Origin: Shinisaurus crocodilurus | Taxonomy: Eukaryota > Chordata > Lepidosauria > Squamata > Shinisauridae | Reading direction: 5' to 3' | Assembly: GCA_021292165.1 (NCBI GenBank) | Contig: JAHFWL010000961.1 | Span: forward strand, 62,001-126,000 | DNA: 64,000 nt | Shown here: piece by piece, positions 774-49,600 of the stretch | How the letters are laid out: each line of letters starts with the position of its first letter | Numbering within the stretch: the first letter of the stretch is position 1 | Notes under the pieces: model-generated | Seen by the model: only the letters and a program-made list of their open reading frames with translations | The model's database searches: none | Told to the model about the DNA's origin: nothing | Made by a program: the position numbers and the translations under genes

Positions 774-1596
774 GCCACAGCCCAGCTGAAGGAGGTCCTG
801 AAGCAGCCCGTGGCATTGTCCCATCTCTGTCACGTGATGTCAAACTCTCAAGATCCCCAGGTAAGTCACAGCAGGGCCAAAGGGTCCAGTCTCCAACCTT
901 TTTGGGCCCGTGAGCACTTTTGGAACTTCGAGAGAGTGTCGTGGGCGCCGTCCACAAGATGGCTGCAGGGGGGTGGGGGTGTTGGGTATCACAGAAATGG
1001 CTGCCGTGGGGGCTATGGCCAGCCATGAAACATTGAGGGCCTCAGAAATAAAGGGCAGGGGAGGCCCCCCATGGGCCCCAGCTGAGGCATTAGATAAATG
1101 AGCAAGGGCGCAATCTTATGTCTTTTTAGACAGAAAATAATCCTACAACTCCCAGCATTCCCCAGCCAGCATAGAATTTTTTTTCTATCTAAGCGTGCAT
1201 AGGATTGCACTCTTAATGTATCCTGTTCCATCTTGCACCCCATCCCTTCCGTAGCTCTTCCAGTGAGAGCAACACTCAAAACCCACAACTGCCAACTTCT
1301 CTCCCCCAACTCCACCCCAATCCTGGCCAAATGTTAGATTTTGTATGCGGTACTTTAAAAACCTGGTTTGGTTTATCTTTCTAAAGTGCCACCCACATGG
1401 CTTTTTCCTACAAGCCAGAACTACCATTCCGGTTTCCCAGAATCCTTGCCGATTCGCCCCGCACCCCTTGCCAGCCTCTCACCTTTGTCTCTCACACTTG
1501 TCTCCTCCTTCCCCAGATCCGGCAATTCGCTGCGGTGCTGGTGCGAAGGCGCCTCACTAAACACTGGAGGAAACTCCACGTGTCTGACCAGGACAT
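774..1596 (+). other. IPO4: IPO4 N-terminal importin-beta (Ran-binding) region, second and third coding exons
   Basis: The exons at 774-860 and 1517-1596 encode the early HEAT region. The second begins IRQFAAVLVRRRL, the typical importin N-terminal motif in which the first HEAT repeats contact RanGTP. The exon at 774 starts in phase 0 after a long C-rich pyrimidine tract (750-770). The initiator exon is therefore upstream of base 1. Confidence 0.9.
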
Positions 1597-4500
1597 GTAA
1601 GTGCTGGGGGAGACATCCTGCAGAACAAGCATGCACTTCTTCCCCCACTCTGTGGCTCAGCATCAGAGGCCTTGCTCTGTTCCCAGGCTTGGGTTCGGTA
1701 AAGCAGGGGTGGCCAACCTGCGGCCCTCCATATTTTGTTGGACTCCAGTTTCCATCAGCCCCAGCCCCTCCCCAGCCAGAGAGGATGGGAGTTGTGGTCC
1801 TATGTGGTGTTGTATTTTTTTAGATCTTTTCACCGCTGCTGGTTTTTACGTTGTCGCTTCATAAAAGCTGTACGTCATGTTTCATCTTGTTGCACTTGGT
1901 CAGGGGTCCTCAAACTTTTTAAACGGGGCCAGTTCATTGTCCCTCAGACTGTTGGGGCCCCCGGGCTATAGTTTGAAAAAAATATGAACGAATGGATCAA
2001 GTAAAAAAAAAGGACTGGGGTCCTCTTTTTTTTACTTGATTAATTGGAAAGTTATTATAAATTAATAATAAATTAATAATAAATTAATTTGCTGTCTAAA
2101 ATTGAAAGACATTAAATTTTAAAAAGGTATAGAAAGGCTTGATTTGCACACTGCACATATCTTATTTGTAGTGCAAAAAACCAATACAATATTTAAAATG
2201 AAGAACAATTTTAATCAACATAAGCTTATTAGTATTTCAATGGGAAGTATGGGCCTGCTTTTGGCTAATGAGATCATAGAATCATAGAATCATAGAAAAG
2301 TAGAGTTGGAAGGGGCCCACAAGGCCATCGAGTCCAACCCCCTGCTCAATGCAGGAATCTAGGTCAAAGCATCTCTGACAGATGTCTGTCCAGCTGCACC
2401 TTGAATGCCTCCAGAGTGGGAGAGCCCACCACCTCCCTAGGTAGTTGATTCCATTGTCTTATTGCTCTGACAGTCAGGAAATTTTTCCTGATGTTTAGGT
2501 GGAATCTAGGTTCCTGTAACTTGAGCCCATTATTCCGTGTCCTGCAAACTGGGATGACCGAGAAGAGATCTTTGCCCTCCTCTGTGTGACATCCCTTCAA
2601 ATACTGGAAGAGTGCGATCATATCTCCCCTCAGTCTCCTCTTCTGAAGGCTAAACATGCCCAGTTCTTTCAGTCTCTCCTCATAGGGCCTTGTTTCCAGT
2701 CCCTTTATCATCCTTGTCAATGTCCGGTTCCATATTTGTCACTGCTAGTCGTAACAAGTGATGCAAGTGTGCATCAGTTAGTCTGGATCTGGTTGGAGAT
2801 TTCAGATGTTTCATTCAGGAAAAAGTCTGTTCACAGACATAGGTGCTGCCAAAGATGGTTGCCATTTTGAGTGCATGGTTCCTGAGATTAAAAGGAAGGA
2901 AGACTGATGGAAGCCTTAACCCTAGTTCTCTGGAGTGAAAGTGAAGGAACACGTCACACACACAACCTTCAGCACTGCTTTAGCAGAGACTGTTCTTCCC
3001 TGGCTCATCATCTCCCACTCCAACAATTGGGAACCCATGGGAGTGGAGGGTGAGAAAAAAGGAAGCAAGCAGCTGTTACGTGGGAAAGGCTTGGCAAGGG
3101 GCGTTCTTTACTCTCCGAACCAAGGTAGGCCAGCAAGGAATTCCCCAGAGAGAAGGGGAACAGGATAGAAGAGCTGGCAGTTATCCCACTCATAACCCAT
3201 CGCAAAGCCTCCCACCAACCACTGCCTCTGTTTCCCCCAAAACAAATGCAAGTCCCAGCCGGATCCTGAACCTGTTTTACTCAGCAGCGAGTCCCACTGA
3301 GGTCAATAGAATTTGCTTCCTGGAATCTGTACTGAGTACTTCAGCAGCAGCGGCCGACGCCCTCCCCCTCCAGAGGTCACACACACGGACCCCGAAACCC
3401 TTCACTCGCACTTAGCCTTGCTCCTCCTGTTCCTAGACTCAGGGTTGGATCCCGATTGAGTCCTACTCCAGAGTAGACCCACCGAAACCAATGGGACTGC
3501 AGTTAAAAGTAACCGCAGCCCCACTGATTTCAATGGGTCTACTCTGGAGTAGGACTCAATCGGGATCCAACCTGCTTTCATAGATTTCATAGATCATAGA
3601 GTTGGAAGGAGCCTACAAGGCTATCGAGTGCAACCCCCTGCTCAATGCAGGAAACTAGAGGAGGGGTCTCCCATCCAAGTAATAACCAGGCCTGACCCTG
3701 CTTAGCTTTCCACGCTCAGACAAGCTGAGCCAGCGTGAGCCACAGGCCTTTGCAGCTCTGTGTTTGAGTACTCACACATGCCGCAGGAGCAAATGCTTCC
3801 CTTCCTCTGTGTCCCAGCCCCTCTGTGCCCACCAACCGGTTTTGCTTTAGCCTCCAGGCAGGCAGGCAGGCAGGCCCAGCCGGCCTGGAGAAGCCTCCTT
3901 CACTCACCACGCATTTCTTGCCGAGGAAGCCGAAGAGGCTCTCGTTCTCTGGCGGGGTGAGCAGCATGGAGCCCATGTTGGCGACCCGCCGCAGCGGCGG
4001 GGGCTGCTGCTGGTTGTTGCTCATTGCGGCGGCCCCCGCCAGCAGGGCCCAGCCAGGACCCCTGCCTCCCCCTCCTCGTCCTCCGCCCGCCAGTCCTGCT
4101 CGTCGCCTCCTCCTCTCCCTCCTCGCCACCGCCGCCTCCTCCGGGCCTGGCCAAGCCTTCTTCGAGCGGCAGCGCCTCGCCGCCGCCTCAGGAGGTGGCG
4201 CCTGAACTGGTGCTGCTGCTGCTGCTGCCCAGGCCGCCGCCGGGCCTGCTCCTCCACTATCACCACCACCACCCACCGCCGCCTCACGAGCAGCCCCTGT
4301 CGCCGCCGCCTTGTCTGCCTGACACGCTGCTGCTGAGGGAGTGCCTGCCCGCCCCGCCGCCGGCTCAGCCTCCCCTTACCCCGCAGGGCGGCCGGCGGCC
4401 GGGCGGCCCACACCCCGCCACCTGCTCAGCCGCCACTCCTCCCCTTCCCCCGCAAGGAACCTCTAGATCGGCCGCCGGGCCGGATGAAAAGACCCGGCGG

Positions 4501-7500
4501 GCCAGAGGTGGCCCGCGGGCCGTAGTTTGAGGACCCCTGCACTTGGTGGTTTTCGGATATTGGGTGGTACAGAAGCGTGATTGTGGAGAAAAAGCAGAAA
4601 AAGCATCAGTATAATCCCAGCTGGGGGCTGGGAAATGCAAAAATGTACATAGCTTCGATGGCACCTCAGAGGCTCCCCTATCTTGATGCCTCCCTGCCAC
4701 AGCCATTCGCGTGCAAATTTGGCCCAAGCCCTCTGGTCATGAGCCACCCCTCCCCTCTGCCTGGGCCAGATGAAGTTCATCCTGATTGGCTAAAGACCCC
4801 TGGGCTACTGAAAGGAGGGGGGGGGAGATCTACACTGCATTTTCGCTCCATAAGACGCACCCACCCCCCAAAAATAGGGGGAAATGTATGCGTGTCTTAT
4901 GGAGCGAATATTGTTAAAAAAAATTTTTTTTTCTAAATTTACCTCTGCGCGCCTCCAACTGGTCCGGGGAAGAGCGGAGGGCTCCTGGGTGGGCATTTGG
5001 TTTAGGTTGTTGGGGTCTGCACGTAAAGAAGCACAGGGTAGGGCTTTTGCCGAGGCAAGCCCTGAAGAGGACCAAACAACCCCCAGGTAAAGGGAGTAAA
5101 GCCTGGGTAGTGATATAGTAAAGGAACTAGCTTTGTTGTTTTGTAGCTCTACTGTGTATACCAAAGTGTCTCCCGACCTTTTCCCCTTCCCTCATTTTCC
5201 ACATTTTGTTGTAATCTGTTTACCTGAAATAAACTTTCCCGGTTTTACCCCACACGGTGTGTGTGTGTGTGTGTGTGGTTCCTCTGTGGTTCGGTGCTAA
5301 ATCCAGTGTACAGACCCAGGGCAAGGCCCCGAGAGAATCGGGTCAAGACGGCAGAGCTAAGGCTGGCAGTCTTGCACCTTTGATCTCTGGTCTTGAGTAA
5401 AGGACCGGTTGGCAGTCCTTTTTCACAGCAGTAAAGAAATCTGATCAATAAATAATACTCCCAAGGTCCCCCGGATCAGCCTTCCCCAGCCTGGTGCTCT
5501 CCAGATGTTTTAGACTTCAGCTCCCACCAAAATGGTCAGGAATGCTGGGCGTCGTCGTCTGGATGACGCCAGGCTGGGGAAGGCTGATCCGGAGCATCGC
5601 AGGGGATCCTGCAGCAGGGGATGTGGACCGGGGTGTGTGTGTTAGGGTGACTGGTTGTGGGGGGGCGGGCTCCTGCATTGCAGCTGACTCTGTGGGCCCC
5701 CGCAGCGCATCTCGGTTCAGTCACTAACAGTGGAAGACCGACAACCTGGTCTTCTGCGCGGGTTCAATGCTAAGGGGGTAGCGAGTCCTGGGGCGGGCCT
5801 TCTCCGAGGTCCCCAGCAACTATCACCCTTAGCCCAGAACAAAGGGATAACTTATAGCCACAAAAGTATCCTTTATAAAACAAGTTTATTTACAAATCAC
5901 CTTCACAAACCCAGACACACGCCAGCAATACAGCTTATCAGTACGGTACAAAGTAGCAAGCAAGAAGTCTCAAGGACACCGTGATTTCAGGGCTCTCAGC
6001 TAGTTAGTTCAGCTCGGGCTCCAGCAGAGGCCCGGTCAACCGCACGCTGCTAGCTGGGTTCCCGGCGGAGGTCCGGTCTACCCAAGCGGCTAGCTGGGTT
6101 CCTGGTGGAGGTCCGGTCTACCCAAGCGGCTTGTGAGTGATTTCAGCTTGGTTTCCCGGGGGTCCGGTCAACCCAAGCGGCCAGTGATTTCAGCTTGGTT
6201 TCCCGGGGTCCGGTCAACCCAAGCGGCCAGTGATTTCAGCTAGCTGGAGCGCGCCGGGTTCTGCTACCCGGGGTTGCCGATCTCTTCGTTCCCTTACCCC
6301 AAGCATGGGGCAAGATTGCTGATCAGGTCCAACAACTCAGTTCCCTTGCGCAGGGTGTTTCATACCTTGGGTTTCAGGTAGCCCCTCCCTCCGTAATCAG
6401 GTGGGTGGCCAATCAGGTGGGTTGCCACCCTCCCTGAGGGGCGGCCTTTTGGGTCAGGTGGGGTGACGCCTTCCTCCTGTGGGGTGGGGTCCCTTTGAAG
6501 CCACTTGCTTAATGGTCCCATCCTGTGGTGTTGAATGGCCCTTTCTTATGGTGCCGAAGTGTCTGCTCTGGGGAGGTATTCAAGTCTTATGTAGATGGGG
6601 CTGATATACGAGAGCATTGACGAACCTGGCGATGCTTCCTGTCTTCCCCCCTGGGGTGATTCTGTGCAGATGTTGTTTGTCCCCTTTGGTCTCTGTGGAG
6701 ACTGGCTGTCTTCCCCCCGCCCCCCCCCCCGGGTCTCCTTCCCCCCACCTTGGTGAGTGTGTGTGTGTGTGTCAGAAAGGGGTTTTAGGTTGGCTTTCTC
6801 CACACTAACGCTGGCCCCCTGCGATCTTGTCTCTTCCAGGCTCAAGACCCTGGTGCTGACCACCCTGCAGCGGGAAACAGAGTGAGTGACTCTTTAAGGC
6901 TGGCCCCGACTTGCGGGGACACCGCCGCAGCATTGTGGCAGCAGAGCCCCCGCTTTGCACGGCGACGGTCTCGGGATGAATCTGGAGGGCTCTAGGAGTT
7001 GGGCCGGGCTGCCTAAAGTCACAACTGTTGCGGGGGCAAATTTGGGTGGGCTTAATAAGGGCCCGGGCAGAAGTCTGTCGAGGGCTGTTCAGCGGGATGT
7101 AAGAACATTCGGAAGAGCCCCGATGCTGGATCAGGCCAAGGGTGCATCTCGTCCAGCATTCTGCTCACACAGTGGGCCAACCAGATGCCCCACGGGAAAC
7201 CCCCCAGCAGGATGTGAGTGCAACAGCACCTTCCCGCCCATGTTCCCCAGCAACTGGAGTACTTCGGTTTCCAGGTCGGGGGGCGATCAACCCCTACACA
7301 GGCCTGTGGCTCACGCTGGCTCAGCTTGTCTGAGCGTGGAAAGCTAAGCAGGGTCAGGCCTGGTTATTACTTGGATGGGAGACCCCCCTCCTCTAGTTCC
7401 CTGCACTGAGCAGGGGGTTGGACTCCATGGCCTTGCAGGCTCCTTCCAACTCTATGATCTATGAATCTAGGAATACCAGGCTCTGGTGGCAAATGACAGG

Positions 7501-46600: not shown

Positions 46601-49600
46601 AAATCTGGGGTAGGAACTACCATTAAATGCCCTGTGAATACGTTGAGGGAGCGGAGCTAACATTTTCGGCTGCTAACGGCAAGTTTTTTCCTCCTCTGAG
46701 AGCTTTCGAGCGTGGTTCTTTACCTCCAACTCGCTAGGGACCTCGGCCCCCCGCACTTCCTCCTCCTCCAACGCTCGCCGCCTGGCATAATCCACACGTT
46801 GGAGGTTGGCACAGCGGGCCCAGAGGTCGTGGAGGGTGGGATGCGTCCATCCTGGGAGAATAAAATGTCAAGAGCTGAGGGGCAGTGCTTAAATTTCTCA
46901 AAAAGGAGAGGCGTGGTGGCTCATATCCTGCCGGCGCATCAGAGTTCTTATTTATTAAATGCCCTTCATCAATAAGGGATCCCATGGCAGTGTACACAGC
47001 ATCAAAAACAAACAAATCCAGTATAAATAGCATACAATTACATATGGGTAGAGCGGTGTTCTCCCACCTTGAGCGATCCCCAGACCCAAGATCAGAAACA
47101 GCTCCGCACTCGAAGCTGGGGATCCGCACTCGGACCCCCTCTGCAGCTGGTGCAGAAATAACTACTGCAGCAGCTGCTTCTCCAAGGTCATAAAAGGGGG
47201 CATTCTAGGAGGAAACGGGGGCCACCAGGATATGACATATCCTGCCGGCGCGCCAGCCTCCTCCCCCTCCCCGCCCAAAGCGTCGCAGCTAGACGGCTGA
47301 AATGAGCCGTCCAGTGGGAGGAGCGGGGAGGTGAAGATTGCCTCCCCGCTCCTCCCGCTCCGCCCATAAGCCTCCCAAGTTTGGAGGCTCACAGGCATCC
47401 CCACTGGATTGCGCCCTAAAAGCCAAATTAAAAACAGCAACTCTTCCACCGGCAAGCCAAACAAAAACACAATAATTCCGTTTTGAAATTATTTGCAAAA
47501 TCCAGGGGATTTTAGACTCTTTTGGGGTGGCGCCCATTCCCCCTAAAGTCTCAGATGCGCCCAATGTAGGAAGAGTCACCCATGTAGGAAGAGTCGCCCA
47601 AGAGGAACTCCCTCCCTAGTGAGCTTCGCCATGCCCCCTCCGTGATGAGCTTCTGCCGTGCATTATAAAACATGGCTGTTCAGGCGGGAATATGGGGTGG
47701 GTTAGGTTTTTAAAAGAACTTTCATATATTGTTTTAATTATTATTATATTTTATTGTATTGTTTTATTGAATTTTAATTGTACATCGTCCAGGGTGGCCG
47801 GATGACCAGCCAGATGGGCGATTAATAAATATAAGAAATAAATAAATAAATAAATTTGGGAATGTTGCTGCCGACATGCGGTTGTGCCTAGTTCAATCTG
47901 CACCCAAGGGCGACTCCCTTAGATTCCAATACGAGGGAACCTGCAGACCTCCAGATTCAGCTGGAGAACCAACTCCCGTTGCCCCTGGCTCTCGGCCAGT
48001 GGTAGTTGGGAGTCCAACAACTTTTGGAGGCCCACGGGTTGCTCAGCCCTGCAAGAGGACAGGCCTTGGGTATGAATCCACCATGGCACAACTGGACTCT
48101 TCTTTTTACACTTGTCACATGAAAAGGAGTCACAAGCATGCCAGGCTCTGGTGGTTGATGATTCTGAAAGGTTCCCCCAGAGGGAGACAAGAGAAAGACG
48201 GGAGGGAGGGTTGTAGAGCCTCTTGCCATCTTTCGCCATCTTTTTTGTACCTCTGCTCCTCTATTAGCAGCTAGCTGGCCCATGCATTTTGAAGCAGGAA
48301 GAACAGGGACAATTCAGGTGCTAGAGGAGATACAAGAGAAGCACAGGTAAACCACAGATGGAGAAAACTGTCCAGAGGTTCTACAATCCTGTCTCCTGTC
48401 TGCATCCAGGAGCGCCTTCAGAATCCTCAACGGAGAGCCTCATTTACATGTGCACTTTTCACATGATACGTGTAACCAGTAGCCAGACCGATGCATTCTG
48501 AGCCTAGTCTGGGTTCAGTTTTAACCCAAACCAGGTTCATTTTGTACACAGTAGCTCTGATGGGGTGTATTCGGAAGACACCCCATCAGAGCTTCAGTGT
48601 ACAAACCTAAATTGGTTTGGGTCAAAATTCTGCATTCAAGGACTTATTATATTTACATCCCGCCTTTTTTCCTGCAAGGAACCCAAGGTGGCTTACATAA
48701 TCCTGCTCCTCTTCTCCATTTTATCCTCACAACAACCCTGTGAGGTAGGTCAGGCTGAGAGTCAGTGACTGGCCCAAAGTCCCCCAGTGAGCTTCATGCC
48801 CGAGTGGGGACTAGAACCCCGATCTTCCAAGTCCCAGTCCGGCACTCTCACCGCTACGCCACACTGGCTCTAAGAATCAGGGTTGCAATTATTTAAATCA
48901 GAATGATTTAAATCAATGATTAAAATCAATAAAAATCAAATTTTTTTGCAAAAAATCATGATTTTTTGCAACCCTGTCGTGTAGGTAGCCTAGTTCTGAT
49001 TAATGTTTTCTGTATAATTTGGTGTTCTTAACTATTAAGTGTAGGCTATTTGTACTTGTGGTTGCCTGAAACTTTGAAATTAATTTTACTTAAAAAATGG
49101 GGGGGGGGGGAATTGATTAAATAAAAAAATCATTTTTTTTTATTTTTTGCAAAAAAAAATCATGCTTTTTTGCAACCCTGCTAAGAATGGCATTAATATG
49201 AGCTTTCCCTAACTTGCTGCCCTCCAGGTGTTTGGGACAACCTCCCATCAGCCTCAGCCAGCACAGGACTGGAGTCTAAGTCACACACACACACACATAC
49301 ACAGGTTGCAGGGGAAGACAACACACACATAGCCCTATCTGGGCTGCTTCACGACCGCTCCAGCCATCTCCAGCTTGCTGCCTGTCTCCCACCTCTTCCT
49401 AGTGATAGAGCAATCGAGTTCCTGGCTTTTCTCTCATCTCTCCTCAGAGATCAGAAATAAACTAGGAAGCGTCTTTCTGTCCGCAGATGCAGGGAGTCTG
49501 GCTGGCCGCCAGAAATGGCTTTGGCGGGCTTCATGCAGCCCATGCGTGGGCCGCGCTTCTCGCTCCCCTAATCCAGGCAATCTGCCTTATTTATTTATTT

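Follow-up and report, generated by a model that had tools for sequence, protein, structure and literature searches.

The DNA considered here is a stretch of 64,000 nucleotides from the 2.19-Gb genome of Shinisaurus crocodilurus (G000:C459:62001-126000), called the window below, and the subject is a hAT transposon that occupies its positions 1901-4539 and carries the start of WASL, the gene that codes for N-WASP. The element is bounded by two 16-bp terminal inverted repeats (TIRs; 1901-1916 and 4524-4539), inverted and without a mismatch, and a search of the whole window for the TIR motif with 0 mismatches returned two sites, both of which are the ends of the element. Outside these ends lies the 8-bp target site duplication (TSD) CACTTGGT, read directly at 1893-1900 and 4540-4547. 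Two exons, at 774-860 and 1517-1597, match consecutive residues of importin-4, respectively 24-52 and 53-75 (7unk_A; E-values 0.07 and 0.004); because these flanking exons match neighbouring importin-4 residues, the insertion is placed in an intron of IPO4 an assignment that holds, and the WASL exon lies antisense to that gene. With high confidence, the window element is one copy of a non-autonomous, multicopy Pack-hAT carrying a piece of WASL, a family likely founded by a single capture and likely spread by the transposase of intact relatives. The features of the locus are the following.

1893-1900, no strand: left copy of the TSD CACTTGGT, read directly and shared with the second contig of the insertion (L010)
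1901-1916, plus strand: left TIR, the 3′ end of the parental hAT (inverted-repeat and motif searches)
1901-2274, minus strand: hAT 3′ region, common to family copies and WASL-less relatives (alignments)
2275-2715, no strand: insertion resembling a long interspersed nuclear element (LINE), absent from the C2 contig and the other long copies aligned
2716-2889, minus strand: what is left of the transposase C-terminus (NLRNHALKMATIFGSTYVCEQTFS...), with a stop within it in the window copy (comparison with WASL-less relatives)
2890-4100, minus strand: WASL-derived segment, colinear with resident WASL (C4:213426983-213428025) and including the later insertion 3579-3747
2890-3907, minus strand: beginning of WASL intron 1, roughly 850 bp once the later insertion is discounted (alignment to resident WASL)
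3443-3572, no strand: palindromic repeat with 63-nt arms, found in the resident WASL intron too
3579-3747, no strand: insertion seen at this locus only (C459 and C2 contigs) among 30 aligned loci
3902-3907, minus strand: splice donor GTGAGT, read directly
3908-4024, minus strand: WASL coding exon 1, 39 codons, open (translation, PDB match, resident alignment)
4025-4100, minus strand: WASL sequence beside the ATG, presumed 5′ untranslated region (79 bp in the resident gene; resident alignment)
4101-4462, no strand: GC- and CpG-rich block, present in the family (composition, pattern search, blastn)
4463-4539, minus strand: 77-bp hAT 5′ end, with 84-87% identity to the initial 77 bp of an intact relative
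4524-4539, minus strand: right TIR (inverted-repeat search)
4540-4547, no strand: right copy of the TSD, read directly
774-860, plus strand: importin-4 exon of the host gene (PDB match 7unk_A)
1517-1597, plus strand: importin-4 exon of the host gene (PDB match 7unk_A)

Without two later inserts, the element comes down to a core of 2,029 bp, composed of the 77-bp hAT 5′ end, the 362-bp GC-rich block, approximately 1,040 bp of WASL and a hAT 3′ region of approximately 550 bp that starts within the transposase C-terminus. The two pieces that the window copy carries in addition to the core of the other aligned loci are 2275-2715, which we take to be CR1-like, and 3579-3747. The same insertion is found on a second contig (C2, at 296.2 Mb) with the same TSD and with flanks colinear with the window at 95.6-98.8% identity, and the C459 and C2 contigs read as two haplotypes. 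An assembly join inside the element, a possibility raised in the original prediction, is ruled out by this second contig. The C2 contig has the insertion 3579-3747 and is without 2275-2715; the LINE-like piece, present on C459 only of the two, is therefore likely a heterozygous insertion.

The captured gene fragment was recognized from its coding exon. The minus-strand frame from 4024 to 3908 encodes MSNNQQQPPPLRRVANMGSMLLTPPENESLFGFLGKKCV, i.e., 39 codons followed by GTGAGT, and matches N-WASP in the PDB (6uhc_H, E-value 2.9e-10). Resident WASL lies on contig C4, where exon 2 was located at 213447941 by a WH1-domain search (25 of 25 candidates scored) and translation of its loci, and exon 1 at 213427149 by a pattern spanning the exon end, on the same strand and 20.8 kb upstream. 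Positions 440-1481 of the family consensus align with C4:213426983-213428025 as a single colinear block (1,078 columns, 90% identity), which takes in 79 bp leading up to the ATG, coding exon 1 together with its donor and then roughly 850 bp of intron 1; the resident exon and the consensus exon are one base apart, at residue 15 (T vs. A). The rest of the consensus gave no match at the threshold of that comparison in 4 kb around resident exon 1, and the CpG-rich block of the window copy gave one match there, of 41 bp at 78% identity. The parental copy on C4 is thus not flanked by the element (only short weak matches in 4 kb), and the host fragment of the element lies between its TIRs. Since intron 1 sequence is carried colinear with the resident gene, the source was genomic DNA and not messenger RNA, and an mRNA-derived pseudogene is ruled out. 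The palindromic repeat at 3443-3572, native to the resident WASL intron, has increased in number by travelling with the hAT family.

The original prediction, drawn from the letters of the window, had described a hAT element with perfect 16-bp TIRs and an exact 8-bp TSD, inserted in an IPO4 intron and containing a 39-codon exon with its GTGAGT donor that matches the start of N-WASP and derives from genomic DNA. Direct reading and the TSDs of the family, the two importin-4 exons, the PDB match and the approximately 850 bp of colinear intron 1 bear out each of these points, and resident WASL, which it had proposed to locate and compare, was found on C4 with its one colinear block of approximately 1,040 bp. 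The span it had offered for that comparison, 3757-4470, was wrong at both ends, the WASL-derived part being 2890-4100. It had also named two observations that would count against it: resident WASL does not continue from the window exon, as it continues on C4, and the WASL fragment does not extend past the hAT ends, no further part of the element being found in the 4 kb around resident exon 1 and both TIRs being visible at 24 sites.

The search for other copies, likewise proposed in the original prediction, revealed a genome-wide family and ruled out a single-copy capture. Own-genome searches score the best candidates only, and further copies are possible: the whole element gave at least 210 matches (best 40 of 6640 candidates scored) and the WASL piece at least 76 (best 40 of 527 candidates scored), of which 40 places reached an E-value of 1e-129 or better. 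When merged, the search rows define 67 places on many contigs, a number that includes the resident gene, alternate contigs and local duplicates, so that independent insertions number fewer than 66. A 37-nt pattern that covers the exon 1 terminus and the adjoining donor, with up to 3 mismatches allowed, was found at 56 genome sites, i.e., resident WASL and 55 others, while the reversed control gave 0. For 50 of the 55 non-resident sites, the fetched locus has element sequence other than WASL next to the exon (29 loci aligned first, then 21 of 21), and hAT-end matches adjoin the remaining five (C4:5.74-5.78 Mb and C919). The copies at C4:5740033, 5755667 and 5775259 are spaced 15-20 kb apart and bear the same private changes, with two more at C919:369237 and 399673; these look like a local duplication cluster and its second contig. 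Five copies (L033 and L035-L038) make up a shorter subfamily of 1.2-1.5 kb that is without the middle of the element.

Thirty loci were fetched, representing 29 sites, as one insertion is present on two contigs (L009 and L010). Both TIRs are in view at 24 of these sites, where the TSDs are exact and all different in 17 cases, differ by one mismatch in 5 and do not match in 2. Several copies thus combine one chimeric architecture with TSDs of their own. The TSDs favour a central TA, which is present in 18 of the 23 read from 22 element copies plus the intact relative described below; the TSD consensus of the Buster group of hATs is nnnTAnnn. The 8-bp TSDs found across the family and the 16-bp TIRs, perfect in the window, agree with the 8-bp TSDs and short TIRs of 10-25 bp described for the hAT superfamily (PMC3942097).

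Relatives of the element that carry no WASL sequence were sought with a pattern built to exclude the WASL junction. It returned 52 sites, two of which are WASL copies (L030 and L032); of the 50 that remain, six were fetched, all six continue upstream into transposase codons and five show the 3′ TIR, while the other 44 were judged on the letters of the pattern alone. One of the six, L056, forms together with its upstream piece L061 (C3:128970645-128976677) a 5.1-kb element with both TIRs (one with a mismatch, the other with none), the TSD GCTTAAAC on both sides and an open frame of 603 codons from stop to stop. Its 5′ region contains 135-bp tandem repeats and a GC-rich stretch of its own, and its first 77 bp are 84-87% identical to those of the WASL element. 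Close full-length protein relatives of its transposase are annotated as GTF2IRD2-like or hAT C-terminal dimerisation proteins, and some carry PF05699; a PDB search with the transposase gave no useful match. As expected of a hAT family, an apparently autonomous relative with a predicted C-terminal-dimerisation transposase is thus present in the genome. The transposase (L056:2-1714) shares 85-89% identity, across the full query, with proteins of a Pelusios turtle, a Pelodytes frog, an Ambystoma salamander, a Paroedura gecko and a Myotis bat, a pattern of identity across vertebrates that suggests horizontal transfer.

The border between WASL and hAT sequence indicates how the chimera may have arisen. 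Read in the WASL sense, the element retains the transposase from NLRNHALK on. At this 3′ junction, WASL CCTTCCTTTT|CAGC and parental TCTT|AATCTC have become CCTTCCTTTTAATCTC, with TT common to both. Of 30 loci, 23 contain the junction, and it is missing from L027, L034 and the five short-subfamily copies. Because the junction is shared so widely, a single capture likely founded the family, which is the simplest reading of the alignments. While a parental hAT was being repaired or replicated, DNA synthesis would have switched into WASL intron 1 at the 2-bp TT microhomology. The switch would have replaced, in the same orientation, most of the transposase gene together with the 5′ part, so that the last 70 transposase codons and the 3′ end alone were left. 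The product would then have multiplied through cut-and-paste transposition in trans, and internal deletions would have generated the shorter 1.2-1.5 kb subfamily. Such a template switch would conform to the FoSTeST model as outlined in the animal survey (PMC8277862).

Several points weigh against this account. The microhomology is 2 bp long and easily due to chance. Movement by the transposase of the intact relative is deduced from the shared ends, and the nearest mobilising partner may be another copy, given 84-87% identity over 77 bp. PF05699 scored below the cut-off against the transposase (E-value 0.011), and the TSDs of L014 and L020, two of the 24 sites with both TIRs, do not match. Finally, the CpG-rich block at 4101-4462 is without a source match, which leaves the 5′ half of the capture account incomplete.

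This block, measured over element positions 76-440, has a GC content of 0.75 and a CpG observed/expected ratio of 0.78 in the window copy. Compared by blastn with 1.5 kb of DNA upstream of resident WASL, it gave short, weak, non-colinear matches on both strands, the best of which is the 41-bp match at 78% mentioned above (same strand, E-value 1e-4). Beyond the shared 77 bp, its matches to the intact relative are also short, the best (41 bp, 80%, opposite strand, E-value 4e-6) falling inside the GC-rich repeats of that relative. A 39-mer from the block occurs at 34 places in the genome, and with three exceptions these belong to loci already recognized as WASL elements. Among the exceptions, L062 and L064 are WASL elements in truncated form, and L063 is a derivative of approximately 450 bp. 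L063 (C3:89126201-89128000) has both TIRs, the block and the 3′ end without WASL, and is either a deletion derivative or a pre-capture relic. A second block pattern matched only the two contigs of the window insertion and was uninformative. The block is also traversed by a long open frame on the plus strand, opposite to WASL, that is rich in proline and histidine (HYHHHHPPPPHEQ); this frame has no Pfam match. The block is possibly a second captured piece. By analogy with the OposCharlie1 (OC1) hATs, in which a lineage-variable 5′ subterminal block occupies nearly the same place, an independent 5′ acquisition is plausible.

The original prediction had proposed that the WASL promoter was captured together with the exon. 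This was rejected: homology to WASL reaches no farther than 79 bp upstream of the ATG, and the block has no long match in the 1.5 kb of resident upstream DNA compared. A wider alternative holds that a promoter-plus-exon cassette was transposed, in which the block would be a working promoter, either that of WASL or that of a second captured gene, and the copies would drive chimeric transcripts as HelibatN3 does with NUBPL (PMC4778049). The composition of the block, the 41-bp same-strand match, the HelibatN3 precedent (PMC4778049) and the preservation of the exon and its donor described below are in keeping with it. However, the remaining matches of the block to WASL upstream DNA are short, weak, on both strands and non-colinear, and changes are 8.6 to 8.9 times as frequent per cell at CpG positions as at others, the pattern expected of DNA methylated in the germline. 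A working cassette is therefore considered unlikely.

The preservation of the copies was read at 52 exon loci. This sample is non-random, since 20 of the loci come from the exon-end pattern list, which needs a nearly intact exon end, and it contains L009 and L010, which are one insertion. The ATG is kept at 42 loci, the frame at 43, the absence of a stop at 45 and GTGAGT at 48; ATG, frame, absence of a stop and a GT donor are combined at 32 of 52 loci (31 of 51 sites). By rule 33 loci pass, and L034 was excluded because compensating indels leave it out of frame inside. Per cell, CpG positions change 8.6 times (exon) and 8.9 times (flank) as often as other positions, and because CpG sites decay approximately nine times faster, germline methylation of the copies is suggested. 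By default, the copies are likely silent, germline-methylated relics. Some copies in sense introns could nonetheless add a start codon and 39 N-WASP residues to host transcripts. Extended to the genome as a whole, the hAT would act as a dispenser of first exons, with dozens of copies offering an ATG, 39 N-WASP codons and a strong donor. Copies lying upstream of genes, or within introns in sense orientation, would then yield chimeric transcripts for proteins that begin with the N-WASP N-terminus, and a CpG-rich block of separate origin, captured as a second piece, might drive them; this proposal is regarded as doubtful. A protein search for products starting with the WASL exon retained 5 proteins from 7 candidates, none of which is an element copy as read: two are annotated WASL proteins, the closest to the exon, from a lizard (Podarcis) and a snake (Naja), which agrees with the squamate host supposed in the original prediction, and three are raw frames read as the resident WASL first exons of other animals.

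Far less credible is the idea that the exon has been retained because an N-WASP fragment or fusion encoded by the element is under selection. In counts by cells, and with CpG set aside, changes are about twice as frequent at third codon positions as at first or second ones (55 vs. 34 and 30; in a separate cell count, 28 of 861 vs. 12 of 915 and 13 of 949), an excess that could hint at constraint or merely reflect inherited changes, and on which selection is not claimed. Indeed, cell counts are inflated by inherited changes, and the distinct non-CpG exon changes show no nonsynonymous deficit, with 54 nonsynonymous, 17 synonymous and 2 stop changes vs. 43.8, 17.1 and 2.0 expected (flank spectrum, 51 sites). 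Weaker still, the notion that segmental duplication or misassembly around a single element produced the copies can draw on genuine duplicates (the C459 and C2 contigs with their common TSD and colinear flanks, the three-copy cluster at C4:5.74-5.78 Mb with two more copies on C919) and on the non-matching TSDs of L014 and L020, but is refuted for the family as a whole by the 17 exact, all-different TSDs among 24 both-ended sites on many contigs.

Apart from these features, Rfam at gathering thresholds gave no match in the element; a transfer RNA (tRNA) match just over the gathering score at 48797-48868 of the window, on the minus strand, is either a tRNA gene or a tRNA-derived repeat.

The interest of the family, a Pack-hAT for which a likely single capture was followed by transposition in many copies, lies in its completeness: the source gene and the capture junction, relatives without WASL, of which one has a transposase frame open over its full length, and dozens of daughter copies are all found in one genome. 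With all stages in one genome, the order of events becomes readable, and cut-and-paste exon shuffling directly testable with RNA data. Multicopy TIR transposons that capture genes are very rare in animals, as a survey of 100 reference genomes reports 370 Pack-TIRs, of which four are multicopy and 208 are hATs, the most frequent superfamily (Tan et al. 2021, PMC8277862). A search of openly licensed papers for the WASL/squamate case, Pack-TIR, OposCharlie and Pack-hAT returned no title or abstract opening that describes the family.

Known systems resemble the family in different respects. In the Myotis bats, HelibatN3 is described as carrying a captured NUBPL promoter, first codons and a splice donor, and can act as an exon trap (PMC4778049). 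The WASL family shares with it, as far as that description goes, a captured start of a host gene with its donor, amplification in a vertebrate genome and the potential of an exon trap; in contrast, HelibatN3 carries a promoter, whereas the WASL promoter was not found in the hAT element. Helitrons are not known to have TIRs or TSDs, both of which the present element possesses, and their transposition chemistry differs from that of a hAT. There is also a likeness in architecture to OC1, for which a 602-aa transposase, a 5′ subterminal block at positions 66-447 that differs between lineages and an autonomous consensus of 2,571 bp (OC1_Das) have been reported (PMC3621081). By this published description, the transposase of approximately 600 aa and the 5′ block, here at element positions 78-439, are alike, while the intact relative is longer, at 5.1 kb vs. 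2,571 bp. Plant Pack-MULE and Pack-TYPE elements, including maize Pack-hATs, capture gene fragments between their TIRs (PMC8903248), as in the present case, which differs from them in its vertebrate-type genome.

To its four multicopy cases, the survey of animal Pack-TIRs adds Ssk-FB4, with four copies in fly populations; the frog example that it details, hAT-N8_XT, carries a piece of the CAPSL 5′ untranslated region and shows three transposition events; captured fragments have a median length of 224 bp, and an origin by template switch has been proposed (PMC8277862). The WASL family is like these elements in that a TIR element with TSDs carries a genomic fragment of non-transposon origin, its parental copy lies elsewhere and its multiple copies have different TSDs. 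It is unlike those described in the survey in that 55 non-resident sites keep the exon-end pattern, vs. three events in the frog example, and in that a whole coding first exon with its donor and about 850 bp of intron were captured, i.e., approximately 1,040 bp vs. the median of 224 bp. The original prediction had held such an element to be unusual in a vertebrate; vertebrate Pack-hATs were already known (PMC8277862), and it is the copy number that stands out. The kind is thus an established one, and what distinguishes the present family is its number of copies and its complete coding first exon, with the donor and a long piece of the intron that follows.

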